This document shows, piece by piece, positions 27,121-53,754 of a stretch of 64,000 nucleotides of DNA. Below the pieces are notes generated by a model that saw only the letters and a program-made list of their open reading frames with translations, did no database searches and was not told the origin of the DNA. Within the stretch, counting starts at the first letter, position 1; the number at the start of each line of letters is the position of its first letter. Origin of the DNA: Xanthomarina sp. F2636L (lineage in GTDB: Bacteria; Bacteroidota; Bacteroidia; Flavobacteriales; Flavobacteriaceae); NCBI RefSeq assembly GCF_026410195.1, contig NZ_JAPMLM010000068.1, positions 687,001 to 751,000 on the forward strand, read 5' to 3'. The position numbers and the translations under genes were made by a program.

Positions 27121-27137
27121 TTTTATTGTTAAAATTT

Positions 27138-27515
27138 ATGAACGCATCCTATCCAAAAAAAGAAAAGCTTAAAAGCGAAACCCTTATTTCGAAATTATTT
27201 CTAGAAGGAAAATCGGTTTCAGCTTATCCTTTAAGGATGATTTATCTTAAAACTAATTTTGATGAGACTGTCTTAGTAAAAGCTGGAGTCTCCGTTTCTA
27301 AACGAAATTTTAAAAAAGCTGTCGACAGAATTCGTATAAAACGTCTATTACGTGAAGCATATAGATTAAATAAAGCGTCTTACTTTAACAACTTAACAAC
27401 ACAATATGCGTTTATGATTTTGTACATTGGGAAAGAAAAACCAACTTTCGTTGAAGTTGAAGCTAAAATGAAACTATTACTTCAAAAATTTGTAGACAAA
27501 AGCACTAAAGAATAA
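27138..27515 (+). CDS. rnpA: Ribonuclease P protein component
   Basis: A 125-residue basic protein that binds RNase P RNA and aids 5-prime tRNA maturation. The family signature lies in GVSVSKRNFKKAVDRIRIKR and LLREAYRLNK. The start at 27138 (MNASYPKKEKL) matches the usual N-terminus KxERL; TTG 27126 would add four residues and sits only five bases after the -7 element. Unlike in many bacteria, rpmH is not adjacent. The S41 peptidase follows after seven bases in the same direction. Confidence 0.94.
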   Translation: MNASYPKKEKLKSETLISKLFLEGKSVSAYPLRMIYLKTNFDETVLVKAGVSVSKRNFKKAVDRIRIKRLLREAYRLNKASYFNNLTTQYAFMILYIGKEKPTFVEVEAKMKLLLQKFVDKSTKE

Positions 27516-31831: not shown

Positions 31832-32266
31832 TTAACAGGACACAGGAATTTTATTCACCCTATTTTCATGTCGCCCTCCTTCAAATTCAGTTTCTAAAAA
31901 GGTATCGACCATTTCTAGTGCTTGCGGTAATGCAGTAAAACGTGCAGGAATACTCAATACATTGGCATTATTATGTTGTCTTGCAAGTGCTACAATTTCT
32001 TTGGTCCAGCATAAAGCAGAACGAACTCCCTGGTGCTTGTTAGCCGTCATATTTGCGCCATTTCCACTCCCACAAATAATAATACCTAAATCGGCTTTTT
32101 TAGTTTCAATATCTTTTGCAACTGGATGTACATAATCTGGATAATCCACACTCTCATTAGAATCTGTTCCATAATTTGTAACTGTAAAACCTTTAGCTTC
32201 TAAATGTTTAATTACAGTAAATTTGTATTCTGTTCCAGCATGATCGTTACCAATAGAAATTTTCAT
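31832..32266 (-). CDS. rpiB: Ribose 5-phosphate isomerase B
   Basis: A 144-residue enzyme interconverting ribulose 5-phosphate and ribose 5-phosphate. GNDHAG (6-11) carries the catalytic-base region, Cys65 in GIIICGSGNGANM is the catalytic cysteine with its phosphate-binding loop, and LCWTKEIVALARQHNNANVLSIPA follows. The length is normal. First gene of the four-gene leftward operon, next to the large AT-rich gap. I see no good TAnnTTTG upstream. Confidence 0.95.
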   Translation of the reverse strand: MKISIGNDHAGTEYKFTVIKHLEAKGFTVTNYGTDSNESVDYPDYVHPVAKDIETKKADLGIIICGSGNGANMTANKHQGVRSALCWTKEIVALARQHNNANVLSIPARFTALPQALEMVDTFLETEFEGGRHENRVNKIPVSC

Positions 32267-33037
32267 AAACTTATTTTTTAATTTATTTCCGACAGCTCGG
32301 AAAAATCATTTCTTTTAAGACTATAAAGTTACTAAATTTTAAAATGACATTTATTTCTTTAGTATATCTATAAACAGATTCTTTTTAATTTATTTATTCA
32401 ATTTGAAGAGCTATTTTTATATAAAATTTTATAATTAAGATACATTCAAAATTAATTCTTAGAATAAATAGTCTTTATAAATAACTATAATAAGCTAAGT
32501 AATTTATAATCATATCTATTAGATGTATTTCTATGAAGCCTTGTTAATAAAGGGATAGATTGTTAATAGCTTTATGAAATAAAACTCACAACCTGTTAAT
32601 AACTGTTTATAATTTTTTAAAAATAAAATATGGTTTATCCAGAAATTTTTCCAATCAAAAACTGACTTCTAATAACCTAAATATAACTCAGCTATTTTTG
32701 GACAACTTTTCAGCTATAAATTTAGTTTTATAAACACAGATTTTAGGAATACTTATAACAAGTTAACATATAAAAACAGTTATCAACAGTTGTTAATAGC
32801 TTTCAAAATTAACCTATAAATGAAGCTTTTAAATGTAAATCTATTGTTAACTACATATTAATAGAACGTCAATAAGCACATTTCAAAATAAAACTTAATA
32901 AAGTTATACCTGCTATTAACAAGCTATAATCATCATTAATATTTTTTTAAATTTTAAAAGAAAAAGATGATTATCTATATATATGTGGATAACTATTTTT
33001 TAAAAATTAAAATTTTAGTTTTGTAAAAAATAATACT
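32267..33037. other. Gene-free AT-rich region with DnaA boxes and repeats, replication-origin candidate
   Basis: No reading frame in these 771 bases looks like a gene. A perfect DnaA box (TGTGGATAA) is at 32984-32992; one-mismatch boxes are TTATCAACA at 32780-32788 and TTATCCAGA at 32635-32643. TTGTTAATAGC occurs at 32560-32570 and 32790-32800 and inverted at 32912-32922; the first two copies extend to the identical 14-mer TTGTTAATAGCTTT. TGTTAATAA occurs at 32542-32550 and 32594-32602. An extremely AT-rich tract around 32940-33015 could unwind. Gene orientation tends to diverge from here. The origin call is inference; the promoter of the next gene lies at its right end. Confidence 0.5.
33016..33023 (+). 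promoter_or_regulatory. -7 promoter element TAnnTTTG before the T9SS repeat protein
   Basis: TAGTTTTG, 14 bases before ATG 33038. The 13-mer TAGTTTTGTAAAA is shared with the rnr promoter at 34615. Confidence 0.5.
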
Positions 33038-34513
33038 ATGAAAAAATTTATATTGGTTTTATTATTCATTCCATGTTTATTATTTAGCCAAGTTCAAATA
33101 GGAGATGATATAGATGGAGAAGGAGCTGGTGATGAAAGTGGTTATAGTGTTTCTATATCCAGTGATGGAACTATAATAGCTATTGGAGGTCGTTATAATA
33201 GAATTAGTGGTGGTATATTTCAAGCACCTGGTCATGTTAGAATTTATGAAAATATTGGTGGAATTTGGACTCAAATTGGACAAGATTTAGATGGTGAATC
33301 TTCTAGTGATCTTAGTGGTAGTAGTGTCTCTACATCTAGCGATGGTACAATAGTTGCTATTGGTGCACCTAATAATGAAGGAGTAAATGGGTTTGCTTCT
33401 GGACATGTAAGAATCTATGAATATAATGGAACATCTTGGACTCAATTAGGCAACGATATAGATGGTGAACGTAGTGGTGATCGAAGTGGAAGAAGAGTCT
33501 CCTTATCCAGTGATGGTACTATAGTTGCTATTAGTGCTCTTGGTAATAATGAAAATGGATCTAATTCTGGCCATGTAAGAGTTTATGAATATAATGGTAC
33601 ATCTTGGACTCAAATAGGAGAGGATATCGATGGCGAATCTACTTATTATCAAACAGGTAATAGTATCTCTTTATCTAACGATGGCACTAGAATAGCTATT
33701 GAAACTATTGGAAATAACGATAATTCTGGACAAATAAGTGTTTATGAAAACCAAGTAGGATCTTGGACTCAAATAGGTGCTGATATTGTTCGTGAAGATA
33801 CTGATGAAGATAGTGATGGTAGTGTCTCCTTATCTGGTGATGGTAGTATACTAGCTATTGGTGTTAAATATAATGATGGAAATGGTATTAATTCTGGCCA
33901 TGTAAGAGTGTATGAATATAATGGAACAGCTTGGACTCAAATAGGTGAAGATATTGATGGCGAAGCTGTAGGTGATCTTAGTGGCAATAGTGTTTCTTTA
34001 TCTAATGATGGTACTTTAGTATCTATTGGTGCTTATTTTAATGATGGTGTAAATGGTACTAATTCTGGACATGTTAGAATATATAAAAATCAAGGAGGAT
34101 CATGGATTCAAATAGGTGATGATATCGATGGTGAAGCTTCTAGTGATCTTAGTGGTTTTAGTGTCTCCTTATCCAATGATGGTAGTATAGTAGCTATTGG
34201 AGCTATCCATAATGCTGGAAATGGTTCTGATTCTGGACACGTTAGAGTTTTTGATTTAACTGAAGCTTTATCAATTAAAGAAAATAATTCAATAGATTTT
34301 AATTTATACCCAAATCCAGCACAAAACCAAGTAACTATTAAATTACAAGAAGCCATAATTTTAGAAAAAGTAAACATTTATAATATTTTAGGTCAGTTAA
34401 TTAGTACATCAAAAGAAAAGATAATTAATACCACACATTTATCTCCAGGTATGTATTTAATAGAAATAGAAACTAATCAAGGTAAAGCTACTAAGCAACT
34501 TGTTATTGAGTAA
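33038..34513 (+). CDS. Secreted seven-repeat propeller-like protein with type IX sorting domain
   Basis: A 491-residue protein with signal peptide (LVLLFIPCLLFSQ). Seven repeats of about 53-59 residues cover roughly 19-410; each has the pattern IGxDIDGE, SGxSVSLSxDGTIVAIG, then SGHVRVYEYNGTSWTQ, which suggests one propeller blade per repeat and a seven-bladed ring. Residues about 425-491 are a type IX secretion C-terminal domain (FNLYPNPAQNQVTI, VNIYNILGQLI, LSPGMYLIEI, TKQLVIE). The protein is therefore exported by the Por/T9SS system to the surface or medium. Repeat 4 is shorter and diverged. Ligand or activity unknown. Confidence 0.88.
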   Translation: MKKFILVLLFIPCLLFSQVQIGDDIDGEGAGDESGYSVSISSDGTIIAIGGRYNRISGGIFQAPGHVRIYENIGGIWTQIGQDLDGESSSDLSGSSVSTSSDGTIVAIGAPNNEGVNGFASGHVRIYEYNGTSWTQLGNDIDGERSGDRSGRRVSLSSDGTIVAISALGNNENGSNSGHVRVYEYNGTSWTQIGEDIDGESTYYQTGNSISLSNDGTRIAIETIGNNDNSGQISVYENQVGSWTQIGADIVREDTDEDSDGSVSLSGDGSILAIGVKYNDGNGINSGHVRVYEYNGTAWTQIGEDIDGEAVGDLSGNSVSLSNDGTLVSIGAYFNDGVNGTNSGHVRIYKNQGGSWIQIGDDIDGEASSDLSGFSVSLSNDGSIVAIGAIHNAGNGSDSGHVRVFDLTEALSIKENNSIDFNLYPNPAQNQVTIKLQEAIILEKVNIYNILGQLISTSKEKIINTTHLSPGMYLIEIETNQGKATKQLVIE

Positions 34514-34540
34514 GTAACTAAATATTATTCATAAAAATTA

Positions 34541-34569
34541 AAGGTTTACATTAATTTGTAAGCCTTTTT
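34541..34569 (+). terminator. Terminator after the T9SS repeat protein
   Basis: AAGGTTTACA pairs with TGTAAGCCTT (one G-T pair) around TTAATT, followed by T residues. Confidence 0.75.
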
Positions 34570-34614
34570 ACGTTAACTTAATATTAAAGAAATAAGTATT
34601 TAATATTAAAAACG

Positions 34615-34622
34615 TAGTTTTG
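34615..34622 (+). promoter_or_regulatory. -7 promoter element TAnnTTTG before rnr
   Basis: TAGTTTTG, 94 bases before the rnr ATG, implying a leader of about 85 bases. Confidence 0.45.
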
Positions 34623-34716
34623 TAAAAATAATTAGCGAAACTTCTCCACTTAAATCGCTATATAATAACCGAATTTCGATTAACTTTATGAAATTCAATA
34701 TGATTACATTTAATAC

Positions 34717-36951
34717 ATGACAAAAAAGAAAAAAAGGAAACCTTCACACAACAAGATTTCCAACCTTACAAATACCATTCTAAGTATTTTAAAAAAAGAT
34801 AGAAACAATTCCTTCAACTATAAACAAATTGCTGCTAAAATTGGTGTCAACGATGCAAGTAGTAGAAATCAAATTATAAAAAAACTTCAAGAACTTAAAG
34901 TTAAAAAAGAAATTGAAGAAGTAGAACGTGGTAAATATAAAGCCATTGTAAATACGGAATATCACACTGGTATAGTAGATATGGCTTCCAGAGGTTCTGG
35001 ATATATTATTAGCGATGATTTTGAAGATGATATTTATATTGCTTCAAATAATATAAACAAAGCGCTTCATGGAGATGAAGTTGAATTTTACGCCTACAAA
35101 CGTCTTAAACGTGGTAAACGTGAAGGAGAAATTACCAATATTATTAAACGTGCTAAAAGCGAATATGTTGGTGTAATCCAAATTCATAAAAACTATGCTT
35201 TTGTAGTTGTAGATGGTAACAAAATGTATACAGATATTTTTGTTCCTATTAATAAAATTAATAAGGCAGAAGATGGTGATAAAGTACTTGTTACTCTAGA
35301 AGATTGGCCAGAAAAAGCCGATTCTCCTTCAGGAAAAATTATTAAAGTTCTTGGAAAACCTGGAGAACATAATACCGAAATACATGCTATTTTAGCCGAA
35401 TATGGTTTGCCATACGATTTCCCTCATGAAGTAGAAGATTATGCTAATAAATTAGATACCTCAATTAACAAAGAAGAAATAGCTAAACGTCGCGATATGC
35501 GTGATGTTTTAACTTATACCATAGATCCAAAAGACGCTAAGGATTTTGACGATGCTTTATCTTTTAGAGTTTTAGATAACGGGTTGTTTGAAATAGGAAT
35601 TCATATTGCAGATGTTTCTCATTATGTGCAACCAGATACTATTTTGGACGATGAAGCTTACGAACGTGCTACTTCAGTTTATTTAGTAGATCGTGTGGTA
35701 CCAATGTTACCAGAAGTTTTATCAAATAATGCCTGTTCTTTAAGACCAAACGAAGAGAAATATACCTTTTCGGCAGTCTTTCAAATGAACCAAAAAGGCG
35801 AAGTAAAAAACGAATGGTTTGGTAGAACAGTCACTTATAGCGATGCTCGATTTGCTTATGAAGAAGCTCAGGCTATTATTGAAAATAATCCAACATTAAC
35901 ATCACCCAATGCTTCTCAATTAGATAAAATAGATATTAATATTCCAGCTGAAGTTGCTATTAGCGGAAAAGCATATAAAACAACCCCAGAAATAGCTTTT
36001 GCTACTTTAAAGCTAAACGAACTTTCAAAAATTATGCGTTCTCAACGTATGCGTTCTGGAGCAATTTCATTTGATAAAGTAGAAGTAAAATTTAATTTAG
36101 ATGAACAAGCTAATCCCGTTGGTGTGTTCTTTAAAACCAGTAAAGATGCTAACAAACTAATTGAAGAATTCATGTTGTTAGCCAATAGAAAAGTAGCTGA
36201 ATTTATTGGAAAACAAGCTCCCAAAAAGACATTTATTTATAGAGTTCATGACGAACCAGACGAAAGTAAATTGGCGGCACTTCAAAATGTAGTAGGACGT
36301 TTTGGTTACAAACTAGATTTTAAGGATAGTAAGAGTATTTCTTCATCTTTAAACAATTTATTAAAAAATGTTCAAGGAAAAAAAGAACAGAATTTAGTAG
36401 ATACATTAACCATTAGAACCATGAGTAAAGCCGAATATTCCACACATAATATAGGACATTACGGTTTAGCTTTCAATTATTACAGTCATTTTACATCACC
36501 AATTAGAAGGTATCCAGATATTATGGCGCACAGATTATTACAACATTATTTAGATGGAGGAAAATCTGTAAACGAAGAGGTTTACGAAGATAAATGCAAC
36601 CATTTAAGTAATATGGAAAACCTTTCAACAAAAGCAGAAAGAGATTCTATAAAATACATGCAAATTAGGTTTATGGAAGACCATAAAGACGAAGAATTTG
36701 TAGGTGTTATTTCTGGTGTTACAGATTGGGGACTTTATGTAGAAATTATTGAAAATAAATGTGAAGGGATGGTTAGTGTTCGAAACATGAAAGACGACCA
36801 TTATGTATTTGATGAAGATTATTATGCCTTAATAGGAAAGAGTAATAAAATTATGTATCAACTTGGTGATGAAGTTATTGTGAAGGTAAAAGATACCGAT
36901 TTAGTTAAAAAACATTTAGATTTTTCTTTAATAGGAAAACATGAGGAATAG
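34717..36951 (+). CDS. rnr: Ribonuclease R
   Basis: A 744-residue 3-prime to 5-prime exoribonuclease of the RNB family that degrades structured RNA. An N-terminal winged-helix segment (residues 10-70) is followed by cold-shock domains, then the catalytic RNB domain with TIDPKDAKDFDDALSF near 265-280, which holds the metal-binding aspartates, and a C-terminal S1 domain (FVGVISGVTDWGLYVEI, near 660-676). The start MTKKKKRKPSH is basic. No neighbour is functionally linked; ends 53 bases before the next gene. Confidence 0.96.
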   Translation: MTKKKKRKPSHNKISNLTNTILSILKKDRNNSFNYKQIAAKIGVNDASSRNQIIKKLQELKVKKEIEEVERGKYKAIVNTEYHTGIVDMASRGSGYIISDDFEDDIYIASNNINKALHGDEVEFYAYKRLKRGKREGEITNIIKRAKSEYVGVIQIHKNYAFVVVDGNKMYTDIFVPINKINKAEDGDKVLVTLEDWPEKADSPSGKIIKVLGKPGEHNTEIHAILAEYGLPYDFPHEVEDYANKLDTSINKEEIAKRRDMRDVLTYTIDPKDAKDFDDALSFRVLDNGLFEIGIHIADVSHYVQPDTILDDEAYERATSVYLVDRVVPMLPEVLSNNACSLRPNEEKYTFSAVFQMNQKGEVKNEWFGRTVTYSDARFAYEEAQAIIENNPTLTSPNASQLDKIDINIPAEVAISGKAYKTTPEIAFATLKLNELSKIMRSQRMRSGAISFDKVEVKFNLDEQANPVGVFFKTSKDANKLIEEFMLLANRKVAEFIGKQAPKKTFIYRVHDEPDESKLAALQNVVGRFGYKLDFKDSKSISSSLNNLLKNVQGKKEQNLVDTLTIRTMSKAEYSTHNIGHYGLAFNYYSHFTSPIRRYPDIMAHRLLQHYLDGGKSVNEEVYEDKCNHLSNMENLSTKAERDSIKYMQIRFMEDHKDEEFVGVISGVTDWGLYVEIIENKCEGMVSVRNMKDDHYVFDEDYYALIGKSNKIMYQLGDEVIVKVKDTDLVKKHLDFSLIGKHEE

Positions 36952-37010
36952 TTTTTGATACCTTAATTTTAGAACATTTAATTTAAATGTTATAAAAATT
37001 AATTATGCAA

Positions 37011-37682
37011 ATGAAACATATAATTTTTGCAAGTCTATTATTTGCAATCACTAGTATAAATGCACAAGTAGAGAAAAATTTAGGAGATTTTAAAGAGCTT
37101 AAAGTATACGATAGAATTGAGGTTGAGCTTATAAAATCAGATACCAATAAAGTGATTATTACGGGAAAAAATACAAGCGATGTTGTTCTTGTTAATAAAA
37201 ATGGAACTTTAAAAATAAAAATGTCTCTTGCAAAAACCTTTAATGGAGATGAAACTACAGTTCAATTATATTATACAAAGTTAGATGTTATTGATGCTAA
37301 TGAAGGTACTTTTATTAGTTCTAACGATGTTATGAAACAGTTTGAGATAGATGTAAGAGCTCAAGAAGGAGGAAGCATCAAACTTATGATTGAAGATGTC
37401 ACTTTTGTAGAAGCTAAAGCCATTACGGGAGGTGTAATTCGTATTTCAGGACAAGCTAAAAGTCAAAATATAGATTTAACAACTGGTGGTTCTTTTTTAG
37501 GGAAAGAACTAGAAACTGAAACAGCAAAAATAAATATTAGAGCTGCAGGTGAAGCTCATGTAAAAGCTACTAAAGAAGTAGATGTTAAAGTAAAAGCGGG
37601 TGGAACAGCTTATATTTATGGTACCCCAGAAACAGTTAAAGAAAATATTTTATTTGGTGGTAAACTAATCCGTAAAGATTAA
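37011..37682 (+). CDS. Secreted head-GIN domain protein (DUF2807)
   Basis: A 223-residue exported protein with signal peptide (MKHIIFASLLFAITSINAQ). The rest is a DUF2807 right-handed beta-helix-like fold: FKELKVYDRIEVELIKSD, the repeated short strands in LKIKMSLAKTF and TTVQLYYTKLDVIDANEGTF, then regular VKVKAGGTAYIYGTPETV turns. The family is common in Bacteroidota and putatively adhesin-like, but no function is established. I prefer ATG 37011 over 37005 because it begins the signal peptide. Independent short transcription unit or rnr readthrough. Confidence 0.8.
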   Translation: MKHIIFASLLFAITSINAQVEKNLGDFKELKVYDRIEVELIKSDTNKVIITGKNTSDVVLVNKNGTLKIKMSLAKTFNGDETTVQLYYTKLDVIDANEGTFISSNDVMKQFEIDVRAQEGGSIKLMIEDVTFVEAKAITGGVIRISGQAKSQNIDLTTGGSFLGKELETETAKINIRAAGEAHVKATKEVDVKVKAGGTAYIYGTPETVKENILFGGKLIRKD

Positions 37683-37762
37683 TCCTTAGTATTATTTCTT
37701 TGTTTTATTATTGTGAATTAACCTACAAGTAACTTTATCTTTAAATCGCTAAAAAAATTATG

Positions 37763-37770
37763 TAATTTTG
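37763..37770 (+). promoter_or_regulatory. -7 promoter element TAnnTTTG before the LysE-family gene
   Basis: TAATTTTG, 18 bases before ATG 37789. Confidence 0.5.
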
Positions 37771-37788
37771 TAGAAACACCTCTTTTGT

Positions 37789-38475
37789 ATGCAAGATGCT
37801 ATTCTTACAGCAATTCCTTTCGGTATTATTTTGTCCTTTACTATTGGACCTGTTTTTTTTGTGCTTTTAGAAACCAGCGCAACAAAAGGGTTTAAAAGTG
37901 CTTTAATATTTGATTTAGGGGTTATTCTTGCAGACATATTCTTCATTATTGTTGCCTTTTATAGTACCACCAAGCTTTTACATAAAATAAAGGATGATCC
38001 AAGTTTCTTGATTTTTGGAGGAGTGCTTCTAGCTGTTTATGGCTTTATTTCTTTTATAAAAACCTCCAAATCTTTTCGCGAAATTGTTAGAGAATATCAT
38101 ACCGTTGAAATTAAAAAGAAATTTGGAATGCTCTTTATTAAAGGCTTTTTATTAAACTTTATTAATGTTGGCGTGCTTTTGGGTTGGTTAGGTTTTATAG
38201 TTATTGGAAGCTCTTTAACAAAAACCAATCAAGAACTTTTTGTTTTTTTAGGAACTATTTTAGCAGTTTATTTTGTAGTAGATTTATTAAAAATGATAGC
38301 AGCTAAAACTCTTAAAAATAAACTAACTCCTAGACGTATTTTTAAAACAAAAAAAATAGTCTCATTAGTTATTTTAGGATTCGGAATTCTATTATTGATT
38401 CAGGGCTTTTTTCCGAAAGAAAAAGAACGAATTAAAGATAAGCTAGAGCAAATAAATATTATTAAAAAGGACTAA
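37789..38475 (+). CDS. LysE family translocator
   Basis: A 228-residue inner-membrane protein of the LysE/RhtB superfamily, exporters of amino acids. Six hydrophobic segments are visible. The family motif G-P-V-F in IILSFTIGPVFFVLLETSATKGFKSAL is at residues 12-40. A basic C-terminal tail follows. Substrate is not predictable; many members in Bacteroidota are uncharacterised. It is monocistronic by spacing; the GIY-YIG-like gene starts 69 bases later. Confidence 0.85.
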   Translation: MQDAILTAIPFGIILSFTIGPVFFVLLETSATKGFKSALIFDLGVILADIFFIIVAFYSTTKLLHKIKDDPSFLIFGGVLLAVYGFISFIKTSKSFREIVREYHTVEIKKKFGMLFIKGFLLNFINVGVLLGWLGFIVIGSSLTKTNQELFVFLGTILAVYFVVDLLKMIAAKTLKNKLTPRRIFKTKKIVSLVILGFGILLLIQGFFPKEKERIKDKLEQINIIKKD

Positions 38476-38544
38476 TTTTTATATCTACACCTGTCTAATT
38501 GTTTAATAATTGGCTTGTAATAGTTCAACTTTTTAATTATAAAA

Positions 38545-38895
38545 ATGGCAAAGATTCAATATCGTATTTATGTTGTAGAATTATCCAAGCGGGTTTTTAC
38601 TGAAAACAGAAAATTTCGGGAAGTCAACCCACAATTCAATGGTGTTTTAGAATGTTTATATGTTGGAATGACAAGTAAAACCCCTAAAGAACGTTTTGAA
38701 CAACACAAAACAGGATATAGAAATAAAAAAGGCCATAAACTTTCCTCGAATATTGTAGAAAAATACGGTTCCTATTTAAGGCCAAGTCTATTCAATCATA
38801 TCGGTCCTATAAGCTCCAGAACAGAGGCTCTTAAAATGGAAGAACAATTGGCCTTGGAATTAAGAAGACAGCGTTATGCTGTTTGGTTTAATTAA
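38545..38895 (+). CDS. GIY-YIG nuclease-like protein
   Basis: A 116-residue protein whose first half matches a GIY-YIG core: RIYVVELSK in place of the GIY strand, CLYVGMTSKTPKERFEQHKTG with YVG in place of YIG, an Arg on the following helix, and a Glu in ALKMEEQLALELRRQRYAVW. These are the residues expected for catalysis. No other domain is attached. Stand-alone members have been linked to DNA repair or are uncharacterised. The 195 bases to the tRNA hold a short inverted repeat (CAATATTT at 38998-39005, AAATATTG at 39009-39016) and nothing else that I recognise. Confidence 0.65.
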   Translation: MAKIQYRIYVVELSKRVFTENRKFREVNPQFNGVLECLYVGMTSKTPKERFEQHKTGYRNKKGHKLSSNIVEKYGSYLRPSLFNHIGPISSRTEALKMEEQLALELRRQRYAVWFN

Positions 38896-39052
38896 CATAG
38901 CTAATTATAAAAGAGTCAATCAGATTAGAGTCTAAAATTTTATTTTGAGATTGTCTCGTCACATATTCCTTGTAGTAAATTAAACTAAATTTAGGTTCAA
39001 TATTTTCGAAATATTGTAAATATATTACTCTAAATTTTCTTAAAATTTAAAA

Positions 39053-39084
39053 TAAAAAAAAGAGCTACTTAAATAAGTAACTCT
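39053..39084 (-). terminator. Terminator downstream of tRNA-Cys
   Basis: AGAG-TACTT pairs with AAGTA-CTCT with one mismatch; on the minus strand a T tract follows. Confidence 0.75.
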
Positions 39085-39090
39085 TTCTAG

Positions 39091-39161
39091 AGGTGTCGAG
39101 CGGATTCGAACCGCTGTAGATGGTGTTGCAGACCACTGCCTAGCCACTCGGCCACGACACC
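39091..39161 (-). tRNA. tRNA-Cys (GCA)
   Basis: A 71-base cloverleaf read leftward: acceptor GGTGTCG/CGACACC, anticodon stem GTGGT/ACCAT around CTGCAAC with anticodon GCA, T stem and loop around GGTTCGAATCC, discriminator T, CCA not encoded. The U73 discriminator is the main CysRS identity element. Confidence 0.96.
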
Positions 39162-39266
39162 TTATAATACCTATATTTTAGCGTCTTAATAGCAACACTT
39201 AAACAAAGGGCTTATTTTTGATGACTGCAAATGTAAAAAATTTTAGGGTCATTCGCTATTTACAAG

Positions 39267-39629
39267 CTATTTTTTACGCTTTTCAGTTATTTTTATTGTA
39301 ACCATTTCAACATCACCACCAATAGGAGGGTTTAATTTACTAACACAAATAGTTACTTTTTTTACTAATTTGTCTTCAGCAAAAATTCTATTTAAAATGC
39401 GTTTAGCTACTGTTTCCAGTAGTTTAGATGGTTTTAACATCTCTTCTCTAACAATTCGGTTTAAAAAAACATAATCAACCGTATCCATTAAATCATCAGT
39501 TTTAGCAGATGTTTTTAAATTTGCTTTTACCTCTAAATCCACTCTATAATCGCAACCTATGGCTGTTTCTTCTTTTAAACAACCATGATGTGCAAAAACT
39601 CTTATATTTTCAACTTTAATTATTCCCAT
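39267..39629 (-). CDS. folB: Dihydroneopterin aldolase
   Basis: A 120-residue enzyme of folate biosynthesis that converts dihydroneopterin to 6-hydroxymethyl-dihydropterin and glycolaldehyde. The N-terminal IKVENIRVFAHHGCLKEETAIGCDYRVDLEV contains the HHG-x5-E signature, MDTVDYVFLNRIV follows, and the catalytic Lys is in VTICVSKLNPP. Length is normal for the tunnelling fold. It has its own -7 element and lies alone; other fol genes are not in the window. Confidence 0.93.
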   Translation of the reverse strand: MGIIKVENIRVFAHHGCLKEETAIGCDYRVDLEVKANLKTSAKTDDLMDTVDYVFLNRIVREEMLKPSKLLETVAKRILNRIFAEDKLVKKVTICVSKLNPPIGGDVEMVTIKITEKRKK

Positions 39630-39633
39630 AATA

Positions 39634-39641
39634 CAAAAGTA
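39634..39641 (-). promoter_or_regulatory. -7 promoter element TAnnTTTG before folB
   Basis: On the minus strand TACTTTTG, only four bases before the folB ATG, so a nearly leaderless transcript is implied if it is used. Confidence 0.4.
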
Positions 39642-39694
39642 CTATTCAAAATGTCAGTTTGAATAAATTTCTAAAATAAATTTGTTGCACATAA

Positions 39695-39904
39695 TTAATT
39701 TGTGAAGAAATCAAAAACATTACTAATGGCACTTGTTTTCGATTTATAGAATTCTGTATATGTACATTTTTTGCAAGTTACAGATGTAAACTTTTTATTT
39801 TGAATATTAAAAAGTTTCGTAAATAATCCACCGGTTGCTTGCATTTGATCCATTTCGTAGCTGCGATTATGGCATTTTGGACATTCGTAATTTCTGTGTT
39901 GCAT
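39695..39904 (-). CDS. Zinc-ribbon nucleic-acid-binding protein (DUF2082-like)
   Basis: A 69-residue protein with two CxxC pairs, ECPKCHNR at 8-15 and TCKKCTY at 43-49, forming one zinc ribbon. The intervening GGLFTKLFNIQNKKFTSVTC matches the pattern of the small zinc_ribbon family formerly called DUF2082. No partner is evident. Divergent from glnS, whose true ATG is at 40004, so the two genes do not overlap. Confidence 0.75.
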   Translation of the reverse strand: MQHRNYECPKCHNRSYEMDQMQATGGLFTKLFNIQNKKFTSVTCKKCTYTEFYKSKTSAISNVFDFFTN

Positions 39905-47885: not shown

Positions 47886-50800
47886 ATGGCAAGATTTGAA
47901 GACATACAAGTAAAGTTAGAACAGTTTATTAAGCGATTTTATACCAACGAATTGCTAAAAGGGACTATCTTGTTTTTTGCTTTAGGATTTTTGTATTTCT
48001 TGTTTACTCTTTTTGTAGAATATGTGCTATGGTTAAACCCAACTGCTAGAACGGTTTTATTTTGGGCTTTTATTGGAGTAGAGTTGTCATTGTTTTTTAA
48101 GTTTATTGCTATTCCATTGGCAAAATTATTCAAGCTTAAAAAAGGCATTAATTATAAAGATGCTTCAAAAATAATAGGCAATCATTTCCCTGAAGTTAGC
48201 GATAAGCTTCTAAACGTTCTTCAATTAAAAGAAGATGCAACAGAGTCTGAATTACTACTAGCAAGTATCGATCAAAAATCGTCCGAATTACAACCCATCC
48301 CATTCAAATTAGCAGTTAATTTTAAGTCAAATCTAAAATATTTAAAATACGCTGCCATTCCAGTTGTAATTTTACTTCTAACATTTGTAACTGGACATAT
48401 TAATTGGTTTAGCGATAGTTATAATCGTGTAGTAAATTATAAAACAGCTTATGAGCCACCAGCCCCTTTTCAGTTTTTTATCCTTAATGAATCTTTAAAT
48501 ACCAACGAGAATAAGAATTTTAAACTATTAGTTTCAACAGCAGGAGATGTAGTCCCAAACAATGTAAATATTACGTTTAATAATGAGACTTATGTGTTAC
48601 AACAAATAAGTGCAGGAAATTTTGAATATGTTTTTTCCAAGCCTAAAACTAACGTTGAATTTCAATTATCAGCTAACAATGTTAACTCTAAACCGTATGT
48701 TTTAAATGTGGTGGAAGTGCCAAGTTTGCTTAATTTTGAAATGCACTTAGATTATCCTTCTTACACGAAAAGATCAGATGAGGTTTTAAAAAGTACTGGA
48801 AATGCCATTGTTCCACAAGGAACAAAAATTACATGGAAATTAGCTACCAAGGCAACAGAACAAGTTCAATTACTCTCTAAAGATACTCTTCAATTAACTA
48901 AAACAGGTTCGGATAAATTTGAAGCTACAAAGCAAGTATCAAGGCCATTAGATTACAGCTTAACAACAAGTAATTCGAAACTCAAGAACTACGAAACGTT
49001 ATCGTACAGCATTGATGTTATTTCAGACGAATATCCTGAATTAACCTTAAAAATGGCTGTGGATAGCTTAGACCAACAATCACTTTATTTTCATGGACAA
49101 GCTAGTGATGATTATGGTTTGAGAAAACTTCAATTAGTTTACTATCCTGTTGATAATAAGGAATATATAAGGTTCGAGCCTATTCCAATTTCAAATTCTA
49201 ATGTGGCAGATTTTATCAGTGCTTTTCCAAATCAATTACAACTTCAAGAAGGTGTAAGTTATAATTTGTTTTTTCAAGTGTTTGATAATGATGCTTTAAA
49301 TAATTTTAAAAGCACGAAAAGTACCGTTTATTCCTATAGAAAATTAACTCAAGAAGAGGAGGAAAAAAAGCAGTTGGAGCAACAAAGTGAAACCATTCAA
49401 AGTTTAGATAAATCACTTGAAAAATTTGAGGAACGTCAAAAAGAATTAGAAGCTCTCTCTAAAACCCAAAAAGAAAAAGCCGAACTAAATTTTAACGACA
49501 AACGTCAATTAGAAAACTTCTTAAAACGCCAAAAGCAGCAAGAGGAAATGATGCAGAATTTTAATAAGCATCTTAAAGAGAATTTAGAGAATTTTCAAAA
49601 GGAAAATAAAGAGCAAGACCAATTTAAAGAAGATTTAAAAGAGCGTTTAAAAGAGAATGAAGAGCAACTTAAAAAAGATGAGAAACTTCTTGAAGAATTA
49701 GAAAAGCTCCAAGAGAAAATAAATAAAGAAGAACTTTCTGAAAAGCTAGAGCAACTTGCTAAACAAAATAAAAATAAACAGCGAAGTTTAGAGCAATTGT
49801 TAGAATTAACAAAAAAATACTATGTGTCTAAAAAGCTTGAAAAGCTTCAAAAGGAGTTAGATGAATTAGCTAAAAAACAATTAGATCTTTCTAACGAAAC
49901 AAAGGAGGAAAATACTAAAGAAAAACAGGAAGAGTTAAATAAGGAGTTTGAAGATTTTCAAAAAGAGATGGAAAAACTTCAAAAGGAAAATGAAAGTTTA
50001 ATAGATCCATTGAAACTTCCCAATGATGAAAAGCATGAGGAAGCTATTAAAAAGGATCAAGAAGAAGCTACTGAGGAATTAGAAAAGAAAGAAGACAACG
50101 AAGCCCAGGAACAGGAGGAAGACGCTCAAGATAATCAGAAAAATGCTGCTAAAAAGCAAAAGCAAGCTGGAGAAAAAATGAAAAACCTTAGCAAGAAAAT
50201 GCAAGCAGGAATGCAAATGATGGGAGGAGGAGAGCAAATGCAAGAAGACATTGCTATGCTTCGTCAAATTTTAGACAATCTCATTTTGTTTTCTTTGGAT
50301 CAAGAAGTTTTAATGAATCAGTTTAAAACTATTGAAGTCAACCATAACAAATATGCTACCTATTTAAAAAAGCAATATACGTTAAAAGAGCACTTTTCGC
50401 ATATAGATGATAGTTTGTTTGCGTTGTCTCTAAGACAACCTAAACTATCTGAATTTGTAAATAAGGAAATTTCAGAAGTGTTTTATAATATCGATAAATC
50501 TTTAGACCAATTTTCTGAAAATAATATATTCCAAGGTGTTTCCAATCAGCAATACACCATTACATCAGCTAATAATTTGGCAGATTTTTTAAGTAACGTC
50601 ATGGATTCCATGCAAATGCAAGCTAGCGGACAGGGTACAGGCGGACAAGGCAAGCCTGAACAAGGTTTACCAGACATTATTATGAGTCAGGAAGAACTTA
50701 ATAAGCAAATGCAGGAGGGCATGAAAAAGAGTCAAGACGGTAAACCTAAAGATGAAGGAGAACAAGGAAAAGAAGGTGATAAAGGTAAGGATGGAGAGAA

Positions 50801-51311
50801 AGGTGAGACGGGTGATAAGGAAGGTCAGGATGGTAAAGATGGTAAGTCTGGGAGCGAAGGCCAAAATCAAGGTCAAGGTGAAGGCTCTATGTCTGAAGAA
50901 TTGAATGGAGAATTATTTCGAATTTATCAACAACAGCAAGAGTTAAGGCAAGCATTAGAAGATAAGTTAGCTAAGGAAGGAATAAATCCTGCAGGCAACA
51001 ATTTAATAAAGCAAATGGAAGAAGTGGAAATGGATTTACTAAATAAGGGCTTTACACATAGAACCCTTGAAAAAATGATGAATCTGCAACACCAATTACT
51101 AAAAATGGAAAATGCAACGTTTCAACAAGGCCAGGATACCAAACGTAAATCAGAAACAAATTCTAATGAATTTGATAATAATACCAATAATCAAATTCCA
51201 AAAGCGAAAGAATATTTTAATACAAATGAAATTTTAAACAGACAAAGTTTACCTTTGCAGCCAGTTTATAATAAAAAAGTTAAAGACTATTTTAAACAGG
51301 AAAATGATTAG
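47886..51311 (+). CDS. DUF4175 family large membrane protein with coiled coil and collagen-like segment
   Basis: An 1141-residue protein. Three hydrophobic segments are near residues 24-51, 57-81 and 150-171. The region to about 485 is beta-rich and probably periplasmic. A long Glu/Lys/Gln coiled coil covers about 490-790. A Gly-rich stretch about 955-1000 has repeated Gly-x-x steps (GEQGKEGDKGKDGEKGE). Another helical part precedes the C-terminus. DUF4175 proteins are found across Bacteroidota with unknown function; their size and shape suggest an envelope-spanning or structural role, which is inference. The end overlaps the ybeY start by eight bases. Confidence 0.85.
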   Translation: MARFEDIQVKLEQFIKRFYTNELLKGTILFFALGFLYFLFTLFVEYVLWLNPTARTVLFWAFIGVELSLFFKFIAIPLAKLFKLKKGINYKDASKIIGNHFPEVSDKLLNVLQLKEDATESELLLASIDQKSSELQPIPFKLAVNFKSNLKYLKYAAIPVVILLLTFVTGHINWFSDSYNRVVNYKTAYEPPAPFQFFILNESLNTNENKNFKLLVSTAGDVVPNNVNITFNNETYVLQQISAGNFEYVFSKPKTNVEFQLSANNVNSKPYVLNVVEVPSLLNFEMHLDYPSYTKRSDEVLKSTGNAIVPQGTKITWKLATKATEQVQLLSKDTLQLTKTGSDKFEATKQVSRPLDYSLTTSNSKLKNYETLSYSIDVISDEYPELTLKMAVDSLDQQSLYFHGQASDDYGLRKLQLVYYPVDNKEYIRFEPIPISNSNVADFISAFPNQLQLQEGVSYNLFFQVFDNDALNNFKSTKSTVYSYRKLTQEEEEKKQLEQQSETIQSLDKSLEKFEERQKELEALSKTQKEKAELNFNDKRQLENFLKRQKQQEEMMQNFNKHLKENLENFQKENKEQDQFKEDLKERLKENEEQLKKDEKLLEELEKLQEKINKEELSEKLEQLAKQNKNKQRSLEQLLELTKKYYVSKKLEKLQKELDELAKKQLDLSNETKEENTKEKQEELNKEFEDFQKEMEKLQKENESLIDPLKLPNDEKHEEAIKKDQEEATEELEKKEDNEAQEQEEDAQDNQKNAAKKQKQAGEKMKNLSKKMQAGMQMMGGGEQMQEDIAMLRQILDNLILFSLDQEVLMNQFKTIEVNHNKYATYLKKQYTLKEHFSHIDDSLFALSLRQPKLSEFVNKEISEVFYNIDKSLDQFSENNIFQGVSNQQYTITSANNLADFLSNVMDSMQMQASGQGTGGQGKPEQGLPDIIMSQEELNKQMQEGMKKSQDGKPKDEGEQGKEGDKGKDGEKGETGDKEGQDGKDGKSGSEGQNQGQGEGSMSEELNGELFRIYQQQQELRQALEDKLAKEGINPAGNNLIKQMEEVEMDLLNKGFTHRTLEKMMNLQHQLLKMENATFQQGQDTKRKSETNSNEFDNNTNNQIPKAKEYFNTNEILNRQSLPLQPVYNKKVKDYFKQEND

Positions 51312-51723
51312 CTACAATTCAGAAAACGCATTTCAACTTGAAAACGAATCTAAAATATCTACTTGGTTAGAAGGCGTTATTTTAAATGAAAACTATAATT
51401 TAGGAGAGATCAATTACATTTTTTGTAACGATGATTATTTGCACAAATTAAATGTTGAATTTTTACAACACGATACGTTAACAGATATTATTAGTTTTGA
51501 CTATACCATAGGAAAAATAATACAAGGAGATATTTATATTTCTACTGAAAGAGTGTCGGACAATGCTAAAGATTTTAATGTGTCCAATACTGATGAACTA
51601 CATCGCGTAATGGTTCACGGTGTATTACATTATTGCGGATACAAAGATAAAACAGCGGAAGAGGTAAAACTCATGCGTGAAAAGGAAAATCATTACCTCA
51701 AAGAACTTGCTAATATTCAGTAA
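51304..51723 (+). CDS. ybeY: Endoribonuclease YbeY (16S rRNA maturation)
   Basis: A 139-residue metal-dependent endoribonuclease involved in 16S rRNA 3-prime maturation and ribosome quality control. The core motif is VHGVLHYCGYKD, with His105, His109 and Asp115; most bacteria have a third His where Asp115 stands (H-x3-H-x5-H). The substitution appears to be usual in Bacteroidota members that I know, so activity is likely retained. ISFDY and GDIYIS strands are typical. Overlaps DUF4175 by eight bases, implying translational coupling. Confidence 0.92.
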   Translation: MISYNSENAFQLENESKISTWLEGVILNENYNLGEINYIFCNDDYLHKLNVEFLQHDTLTDIISFDYTIGKIIQGDIYISTERVSDNAKDFNVSNTDELHRVMVHGVLHYCGYKDKTAEEVKLMREKENHYLKELANIQ

Positions 51724-51730
51724 ATCAGCG

Positions 51731-51738
51731 TATATTTG
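51731..51738 (+). promoter_or_regulatory. -7 promoter element TAnnTTTG before mnmG
   Basis: TATATTTG, 108 bases before the mnmG ATG, seven bases after the ybeY stop. CTTG at 51706-51709 is 21 bases upstream, near the -33 position. A parS site lies in the leader. Confidence 0.55.
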
Positions 51739-51785
51739 CAAAATATTTCATTTGAAATCAGAAATTTCACAAATAACACTTTAAT

Positions 51786-51801
51786 TGTTCCACGTGGAAC
51801 A
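51786..51801. other. parS centromere site (left copy)
   Basis: TGTTCCACGTGGAACA matches the ParB-binding consensus TGTTnCACGTGnAACA exactly; the palindrome extends to 22 bases (51783-51804). It lies between the mnmG promoter candidate and its start codon. A second identical core is at 53739-53754. parA and parB are not in the window. Confidence 0.88.
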
Positions 51802-51846
51802 ATTGCTTTCTTCACCCGAAGGTTTTAAAAAAAATAGGAATAAATT

Positions 51847-53718
51847 ATGTTTAATACAGTATATGATGTTATAGTAGTTGGTGGTGGTCATGCAGGAAGT
51901 GAAGCTGCAGCAGCAGCTGCAAATATGGGTAGCAAGACTTTACTTATTACCATGAACCTACAAAATATTGCCCAAATGTCTTGCAATCCAGCTATGGGAG
52001 GAATTGCCAAAGGACAGATTGTAAGAGAGATCGATGCGTTAGGGGGTTATAGTGGAATTGTAAGTGATACGTCTGCCATTCAATTCAAAATGTTGAATAA
52101 ATCTAAAGGTCCTGCTATGTGGAGCCCTCGTGTGCAAAGTGATAGAATGCGTTTTGCAGAAGATTGGCGTTTGATGTTAGAGAATACTGCTAATTTAGAT
52201 TTTTATCAAGAAATGGTTTCTGGTCTTGTTGTGGAGAATCATAAAGTTACAGGAGTTAAAACCTCTCTAGGACTTGTTATAAAAACCAAATCTGTTGTAT
52301 TAACTAATGGAACTTTTTTAAATGGGTTAATACATATAGGGGATAAAAATTTTGGTGGTGGTAGAGCCGGTGAAAAATCAGCTATCGGAATTACTGAACA
52401 ATTAGTGAGTTTGGGTTTTGAATCTGGAAGAATGAAAACAGGAACACCTCCAAGAGTAGATGGTAGGTCTTTGGATTTTTCAAAAATGATAGAACAGCCA
52501 GGAGATGAGAATCCAGAAAAATTTTCATATTTAGATGTCACAAAATCGCTCTCAAAACAACGCTCTTGTTTTATGAGCTATACTAGTCCGGAAGTACATG
52601 ATTTGCTTCGTGAAGGTTTTGATAGATCACCAATGTTTAATGGGCGTATTAAAAGTTTAGGACCAAGATACTGTCCATCTATTGAGGATAAAATCAACCG
52701 ATTTGCAGATAAAGATAGGCATCAATTATTTATTGAACCAGAAGGATGGAATACGGTTGAAATGTATATTAATGGGTTCTCTACTTCTTTACCGGAAGAT
52801 GTTCAATTTAAAGCTCTAAGTTCTGTAGCAGGATTTAAAAATGTTAAGTTTTTCCGTCCTGGTTATGCTATTGAATACGATTATTTCCCACCAACACAAT
52901 TGCAACACACTTTAGAAACCAAGTTGGTTGAAGGTTTATACTTTGCGGGGCAAATTAATGGAACCACTGGATATGAAGAGGCAGCTTCTCAAGGTTTAAT
53001 GGCTGGAATTAATGCCTCCTTAAAAGTTCAAGAAAGAGAGCCTTTTACTCTAGGTAGAAGTGAAGCTTATATAGGTGTTTTAATAGACGATTTAATTACA
53101 AAAGGTACAGAAGAGCCTTATCGCATGTTTACTTCGCGTGCAGAATATAGAACGTTGTTGCGACAAGATAATGCAGATTTTAGATTGACTCCTAAATCTT
53201 TTGAGATTGGTTTAGCTTCAAATAAGCGTATGAAGCGAATGGAAGAAAAACAAAATAAAGCCGAGGCATTTGTTCAGTTTTTTGCAGAGACTAGTGTAAA
53301 ACATGAAGAGATAAATCCTATTTTAGAGAATAAAGATTCTGCTTTAATGAAGCAATCAGATAAAATGTTTAAAATATTTTCTCGTCCCAATATTACCATA
53401 GAAGATATGAAACAAGTTGAGGTTGTGGAAGCTTATATTCAAGAGCACGATTTGGATAATGAAATTATCGAACAAGCCGAAATTCAAATTAAATATTCAG
53501 GTTATATAGAGAAGGAAAAAAATAATGCTGACAAATTAAGTAGACTAGAAAATATTAAAATCCCAAAAAACTTCGATTATTCAAAACTAAAATCCATGAG
53601 TATGGAAGCTAGGGAGAAACTGAATAAAATACAACCAGTTACCATCTCTCAAGCTTCTCGAATTAGTGGTGTTTCACCTAGTGATGTATCTGTACTTTTA
53701 GTATATATGGGAAGATAA
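51847..53718 (+). CDS. mnmG: tRNA uridine 5-carboxymethylaminomethyl modification enzyme
   Basis: A 623-residue FAD enzyme (formerly GidA) that, with MnmE, modifies U34 of tRNAs for split-box codons. The FAD site is VIVVGGGHAGSEAAAAAANMG (9-29). The family signatures SCNPAMGGIAKGQIVREIDALGG and GLYFAGQINGTTGYEEAASQGLMAG follow, and the C-terminal helical MnmE-binding part (SQASRISGVSPSDVSVLLVYM) is complete. The gene is exactly framed by two parS sites. No rsmG, parA or parB follows, unlike in Bacillus-type origin regions. Confidence 0.97.
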   Translation: MFNTVYDVIVVGGGHAGSEAAAAAANMGSKTLLITMNLQNIAQMSCNPAMGGIAKGQIVREIDALGGYSGIVSDTSAIQFKMLNKSKGPAMWSPRVQSDRMRFAEDWRLMLENTANLDFYQEMVSGLVVENHKVTGVKTSLGLVIKTKSVVLTNGTFLNGLIHIGDKNFGGGRAGEKSAIGITEQLVSLGFESGRMKTGTPPRVDGRSLDFSKMIEQPGDENPEKFSYLDVTKSLSKQRSCFMSYTSPEVHDLLREGFDRSPMFNGRIKSLGPRYCPSIEDKINRFADKDRHQLFIEPEGWNTVEMYINGFSTSLPEDVQFKALSSVAGFKNVKFFRPGYAIEYDYFPPTQLQHTLETKLVEGLYFAGQINGTTGYEEAASQGLMAGINASLKVQEREPFTLGRSEAYIGVLIDDLITKGTEEPYRMFTSRAEYRTLLRQDNADFRLTPKSFEIGLASNKRMKRMEEKQNKAEAFVQFFAETSVKHEEINPILENKDSALMKQSDKMFKIFSRPNITIEDMKQVEVVEAYIQEHDLDNEIIEQAEIQIKYSGYIEKEKNNADKLSRLENIKIPKNFDYSKLKSMSMEAREKLNKIQPVTISQASRISGVSPSDVSVLLVYMGR

Positions 53719-53738
53719 AAAATGTTTAGTTTGAAACA

Positions 53739-53754
53739 TGTTCCACGTGGAACA
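53739..53754. other. parS centromere site (right copy)
   Basis: TGTTCCACGTGGAACA, identical in core to the copy at 51786-51801; the palindrome extends to 18 bases. It lies between the mnmG stop and the methyltransferase start. Confidence 0.88.

Follow-up and report, generated by a model that had tools for sequence, protein, structure and literature searches.

Two perfect copies of the 16-mer TGTTCCACGTGGAACA flank the gene mnmG in the 64,000-nucleotide stretch of Xanthomarina sp. F2636L DNA analysed here (the window), and they are very probably the parS centromere sites of a chromosomal ParABS system, marking an origin region 12-20 kb upstream of mnmG that lies most likely at the rpiB/rnr spacer and not at dnaA. 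In general terms, such sites look like handles for the separation of newly copied chromosomes, and these would mark the presumed start of copying, which in relatives is far from dnaA. The argument is built from sequence, namely from the sites themselves and their number in the genome, the encoded ParB with its two residues, the recurrence of the site position, and the skew and the rRNA orientation in relatives.

The first site (51786-51801) lies in the ybeY-mnmG intergenic region, within a 22-base palindrome (51783-51804), and ends 45 nt before the start codon of mnmG (gidA; 51847-53718, plus strand), the gene of a tRNA uridine-5-carboxymethylaminomethyl synthesis enzyme (TIGR00136, 848.6 bits; PF01134). 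The second site (53739-53754) starts 20 nt after the stop codon, and its palindrome, as read from the sequence, comprises 18 bases. The 5' neighbour of site 1 is ybeY (51304-51723, plus strand, profile match), and a methyltransferase-like gene adjoins mnmG on the side opposite ybeY. Both sites agree fully with the 16-bp consensus of chromosomal parS, TGTTNCACGTGNAACA, and they are the only perfect matches to it in the 3,367,842 bases (75 contigs) of their own genome (G000, a draft of 3.37 Mb, 99.99% complete). About 0.01 perfect sites would be expected by chance, taking the base composition from 400 kb of the same genome, so a chance origin was rejected. With up to two mismatches there are 22 sites genome-wide, the two perfect ones included, versus 10 for a reversed control pattern. 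The sequence-only reading had described two perfect parS-consensus sites framing mnmG, the left one as a 22-base palindrome, and its sites, coordinates and palindrome hold; the 16-mer, which it considered might prove to be scattered over the chromosome, has only these two copies, 1.95 kb apart, few and grouped near the predicted origin as is typical of chromosomal parS. A degenerate parS-like palindrome, TGTTCCACAAGGAACA, with two mismatches, is located 3 kb to the left of site 1 within a DUF4175 gene (48809-48824). It was set aside as a third parS, its counterpart being absent from the relative G198, where the interval 1.530-1.565 Mb holds no site with up to two mismatches besides the two perfect ones.

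As the same reading had remarked, parA and parB are not adjacent to the sites, and a ParB gene, whose absence it named as a refuting result, is present: a single ParB gene, the cognate partner that chromosomal parS sites call for, is encoded on contig C54, immediately after the ParA gene. The domains PF02195 (ParB_N), PF17762 (HTH_ParB) and PF23552 (ParB_C) all score over their cut-offs, which is the domain composition of ParB as opposed to Noc, and TIGR00180 also matches; the Noc model TIGR04285 gives 236.9 bits, above the 161.1 of parB_part and below its own cut-off of 315. According to passages of PMC7383237, R173 and G201 are absolutely conserved in ParB and altered in Noc. The C54 protein reads GKKR and SMGHGR, giving R at 173 and G at 201 in Caulobacter numbering, the two positions having been placed by motif in alignments to solved chains of a ParB family protein/Spo0J and not to Caulobacter ParB or Noc. 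These residues, together with the ParB domains, indicate that a parS-type reader is encoded, though not in the vicinity of the sites. An additional ParB-domain protein, its frame spanning some 600 aa, was seen at each of G198:C1:1993962, G107:C111:61791 and G226:C1:253918.

The sites are widespread in the phylum Bacteroidota, and so is their position. At least one perfect site occurs in 226 of 296 genomes, with one to five copies in those, and the position was compared in 40 genomes with listed sites, taken from these 226 and all therefore carrying a perfect one. In 33 of the 40 a site precedes mnmG by at most 3 kb, and G025 in addition has a site that adjoins ybeY at a contig end; 69 of the 77 sites among the matches listed fall within 3 kb of mnmG, and 22 of the 30 loci read in relatives have a ybeY match next to the site. 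Framing of mnmG was found in eight of the 40 genomes: the window's own and seven others, counting G198, whose second site (1,555,011) is a downstream copy found on reading that locus. In these sequences the upstream site is the common state and the downstream copy the property of a subset. The exceptions are four genomes of family f5, with the site 118 kb off or on another contig, and two of family f9, with the site 25-27 kb off. At the f5 loci L012-L015, where parS is away from mnmG, the only match to window genes is a weak M1-peptidase one, in a single locus of the four. Sixteen relatives (f1-f11) lack a perfect site; inspected by eye, nine of them have a one-mismatch site beside mnmG (framing it in one genome and only downstream in two) and seven do not.

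Such a stable association with one gene could have another cause, namely that the sites are indeed parS and their placement around mnmG is chiefly regulatory, with leader-bound ParB tuning mnmG expression to the cell cycle. This seems decidedly improbable, even though the layout of the window is suggestive: a Bacteroidetes-type promoter-like sequence, TTG-N21-TATATTTG (51707-51738, plus strand, read from the sequence), precedes site 1 and resembles the promoter consensus of the group, TTG-N21-TAnnTTTG, so that the site falls between it and the start codon, and the upstream position recurs in those 33 of 40 genomes. The sequence-only reading had suggested that spreading of ParB could influence mnmG expression, since it placed site 1 between the mnmG promoter and the start codon; this placement stands for the window as far as a promoter-like sequence goes, but does not extend to relatives as a conserved layout. 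Among 22 leaders, TAnnTTTG is found upstream of the mnmG-proximal site in five (the window included), between site and mnmG in another five, and is absent from 12; no TTG partner was found in any of the 22, the leaders having been taken from the end of ybeY onward, so that a TTG inside ybeY, as is the case here, would have been missed. For 10 of these leaders even the closest site begins over 100 nt ahead of mnmG, which, together with the variable position of TAnnTTTG, means that the order promoter-parS-start is not established as conserved. Across genomes, the spacing from parS to the start of the mnmG match ranges from 21 to 855 nt, and the two f9 genomes hold parS about 7 kb (6.7-7.5 kb) from the start of rnr, away from mnmG, all of which argues against regulation as the main cause. 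Passages of PMC7022226 point both ways: genes near parS are silenced on mild ParB overproduction in Pseudomonas, yet genes adjacent to parS are unaffected by the loss of Spo0J, and in S. pneumoniae the affected genes are not near parS.

The palindrome could also work at the RNA level, forming in the transcript of mnmG a hairpin that serves as an attenuator or a stability element, which is hardly credible and was rejected as its main role. The leader does fold with a 10-bp stem at the site, but modestly so (z of -2.07, with 6 of 200 shuffles as good), and 39 sites read in the mnmG sense would have a C-A mismatch in eight cases, a U-G pair in 14 and a full pair in 17. Moreover, the consensus is a DNA palindrome common to downstream and distant sites, and the matches of Rfam here at the gathering threshold are just two tRNAs. 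We thus return to the sites as parS and to the question of what they mark.

The gene dnaA is the usual marker of the origin, and genome annotations usually assume that the origin is there; in three of eight single-contig relatives the deposited sequence begins at dnaA. Could the origin then be at dnaA, and the parS studied here be a secondary site? Apart from custom, what speaks for it is the genome G057, where the rRNA orientation fits parS and dnaA alike (3/3). In the eight single-contig relatives the distance between dnaA and parS is 748-1912 kb, dnaA being up to 89% of the way toward the side opposite parS, and all 25 rRNA loci detected point away from parS/mnmG, as expected of an origin there, versus 10 of 25 for one at dnaA. 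This count scored up to 15 candidates per genome, so copies may be missing, and merged same-place fragments by hand; it used eight of 12 genomes (left out were the draft G000 and, for lack of a match, G007, G166 and G150), with the length of G226 taken as 4.5 Mb. Whole-chromosome skew likewise comes from relatives, the own genome being a draft: 20 stretches of 20 kb were sampled in each of G198, G170, G134 and G269, and in these four the point where the strand-corrected GC3 skew flips sign is 11-39 kb away from parS, resolved to ±84 to ±121 kb (fit R2 0.61-0.88; none of 300 permutations as good in any of the four). The fitted origin is 968-1740 kb away from dnaA, and the distance between dnaA and the fitted terminus is 174-386 kb in all but G170 (1694 kb there), with no minus-to-plus skew switch at dnaA in any of the four sampled genomes. 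The same mismatch of dnaA is reported for Mariniflexile in passages of PMC11278836. On the skew of the four genomes and the 10/25 rRNA orientation, an origin at dnaA was rejected, its probability being minimal. The expectation that the sites would be near oriC, already voiced from the sequence, has been borne out in relatives, in the sense that parS/mnmG is the place to which both the skew switch and the orientation of the rRNA loci point.

When mapped more finely, the switch comes to lie 12-20 kb upstream of mnmG, a range that includes the rpiB/rnr spacer. In the window, the candidate oriC (32267-33037, 18.7 kb from site 1) is an AT-rich spacer with DnaA-box-like repeats on the right of rpiB (31832-32266, minus strand, profile match), its right border gene in relatives being rnr (RNase R; 34717-36951 here, plus strand, profile match). 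It contains a perfect DnaA box, TTATCCACA (32984-32992, minus strand, motif match), and the further sequences TTATCCAGA at 32635 and TTATCAACA at 32780, both on the plus strand. Of 82 sequences, 68 have a divergent rpiB/rnr spacer, with a median length of 922 bp and a median GC content of 22.8% (range 16-32%; the window's is counted up to rnr, with the extra gene inside included), the other 14 having no rpiB in view (none within the flank in nine, too short in five). The 68 spacers hold 18 perfect TTATCCACA boxes versus 0.65 expected from base shuffles, and 91 versus 27 expected when one mismatch is allowed; TTATTAACA and TTATCAACA are enriched too in the 59 spacers shorter than 1500 bases, and nine relatives share conserved blocks with this window. 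In both 400-kb stretches that were scanned, TTAT[CT][CA]ACA, a motif picked after the enrichment test, clusters most densely in the rpiB/rnr spacer, which also ties for the densest cluster of one-mismatch E. coli DnaA boxes. No other 600-bp stretch of the own 400 kb is as rich in AT, which is not the case in G198. The spacer therefore has what is sought in an oriC, a cluster of DnaA boxes in AT-rich intergenic DNA. A gene for a T9SS-sorted FG-GAP protein (33038-34513) lies in the window between the conserved origin-like block and rnr; the spacers of the nine aligned relatives measure just 622-712 bp, and 10 of the 68, the window's included, exceed 1500 bp. The gene rnpA (27126-27515) is 5 kb to the left of the candidate origin, a position that presumably resembles the rnpA-oriC neighbourhoods of other bacteria.

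The strand-composition switch is less precise. In 400 kb of the own genome, the codon model leaves the window positions 32.3-39.8 kb (switch interval 32267-39838) no more than 4 log units below the best boundary, and the rpiB/rnr boundary at its left end is 2.0 log units below the best in this model and 6.6 in the GC3 model. For G198, over 400 contiguous kb, the top-scoring switch (1,534,317-1,534,371) falls between rpiB and a cation-efflux (CDF) gene, one gene from the spacer and 18.7 kb upstream of parS; in this relative the rpiB/rnr boundary itself is 7.5 (codon model) and 2.9 (GC3 model) log units below the best. The per-gene means across loci favour instead the boundary folB/glnS (39630-39838), and an origin there, or at another nearby spacer still close to mnmG, is rather unlikely. 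In its favour, third positions over up to 66 loci are G-rich in FolB (minus strand) and C-rich in LysE and DUF2807 (both plus strand), and in the own genome the corrected GC3, when cumulated, also reaches its minimum there. However, in G198 this boundary is worse than the best by 23.8 (codon model) and 6.2 (GC3 model) log units, and the folB/glnS spacer of the window, of 209 bp, has none of the DnaA-box hits. Also against rpiB/rnr, minus-strand frames to the right of rnr are G-rich on average over the same loci (up to 66); RpiB (minus strand) is C-rich at third positions, counter to both placements, and no clean switch emerged from these means by coding strand. A further point against the spacer is the raw GC skew of the own genome, which has its minimum at 19.3 kb of the window; raw skew in the window was given no weight, as it depends on gene orientation. 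The rpiB/rnr spacer is thus the best candidate for the predicted oriC, the evidence for the exact spot being mixed.

How far does this arrangement hold? In family f1, rnr and parS share a contig in 22 of 24 genomes, at a median distance of 16.5 kb over the 22; in 21 of these parS follows the rnr start by 10.8-38.8 kb, and in G053 it precedes that start by 11.6 kb. In the f9 genomes parS is near rnr and not mnmG, as described, and in f4 rnr is 0.9-2.2 Mb from parS in linear coordinates (three genomes with both on one contig), while in G269, of this family, parS is at the skew origin all the same; one f8 genome has rnr 70.6 kb from parS. Hence parS tracks the origin, and rnr marks it in some families only. 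Family f1 would correspond to the Flavobacteriaceae, as suggested by its named relatives (Xanthomarina with 89% and Formosa with 88% identity in RNase R).

Condensin differs between these families as well. Neither SMC (TIGR02168) over its cut-off nor ScpA (PF02616) was found in eight of eight f1 genomes (the own and seven others) and two of two from f9 (G166 and G072), whereas both are present in the six f4/f5 genomes tested; weak partial SMC matches under the cut-off occur in all 16. The search, which among condensins covered Smc and ScpA, suggests that canonical condensin is patchily distributed in the phylum. On balance, a picture for the Flavobacteriaceae is slightly favoured in which the origin is conserved at rpiB/rnr, the ParB centromere is about 16 kb off at ybeY-mnmG, both dnaA and parAB have moved elsewhere (dnaA, in some cases, nearly as far as the terminus), and the system works without Smc-ScpAB.

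Mechanistically, ParB would be made from the distant parAB operon, load on the two parS sites as a CTP-dependent clamp and spread across mnmG and its neighbours, and ParA would move the origin-proximal ParB-parS complexes apart after replication. Replication itself would begin some 12-20 kb ahead of mnmG, the likeliest place being the rpiB/rnr spacer (32267-33037) rather than dnaA. Loading, clamp spreading and ParA-driven movement are transferred here from established ParABS biology; ParB binding, the segregation function and the exact oriC are inferred.

Within the literature matches listed, the titles and abstracts (parS with Bacteroidetes, Flavobacterium or mnmG) contain nothing on parS beside mnmG; the general parS survey by Livny et al. 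2007 reportedly may list such sites. PMC13342612, in a word search of the portion available, contains Flavobacterium, ParB and parS but not mnmG. Passages of PMC10197239 place the origins of gut bacteria by parS clusters, GC skew and Hi-C, warn against dnaA as a marker, and report that known condensin was not found in two gut Bacteroidetes, Bacteroides caecimuris and Muribaculum. The present system is similar in that a parS cluster marks the origin, the origin is not systematically at dnaA and known condensin was not found, and it differs in its mnmG and rpiB/rnr spacer features, of which those passages have none. Closer relatives have also been described: in the available parts of PMC11278836, dnaA of Mariniflexile litorale does not fit the GC skew and the origin is predicted next to mnmG (a figure legend swaps origin and terminus), and in those of PMC12843772 mnmG is named as the origin in Algorimicrobium. 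Both predictions come from Ori-Finder, and since that server scores lineage-specific indicator genes (PMC10225481, in part), these mnmG origins may be partly built in. Both organisms are Flavobacteriaceae with the origin called at or beside mnmG, as here, although here the switch is 12-20 kb upstream of it, and a word search of the accessible text of the two papers found parS sites named in neither. The type of parS is therefore known and an origin near mnmG is already in print for two flavobacteria, the newer points being the framing of mnmG by parS and the lack of detectable Smc/ScpA.

If the reading is right, parS upstream of mnmG would be a simple marker by which the origin can be located in the sequence throughout a large bacterial family. 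The mismatch between origin and dnaA affects coverage-based estimates of replication rate, gene-dosage analyses and studies of strand bias, and a ParB-parS system in which Smc-ScpAB was not found is a setting for studying condensin-independent functions of ParB.

The chromosomal parS sites of the ParABS systems of B. subtilis, Caulobacter and Pseudomonas follow a 16-bp consensus and occur in few copies near the origin, with a canonical ParB that goes together with ParA. The sites described here are alike in their consensus, their low number, their predicted proximity to the origin and the single canonical ParB accompanied by ParA. Unlike in those systems, dnaA is distant in the single-contig relatives, the f1 genomes tested have no Smc over the cut-off or ScpA, parAB is not adjacent, and the sites frame mnmG.
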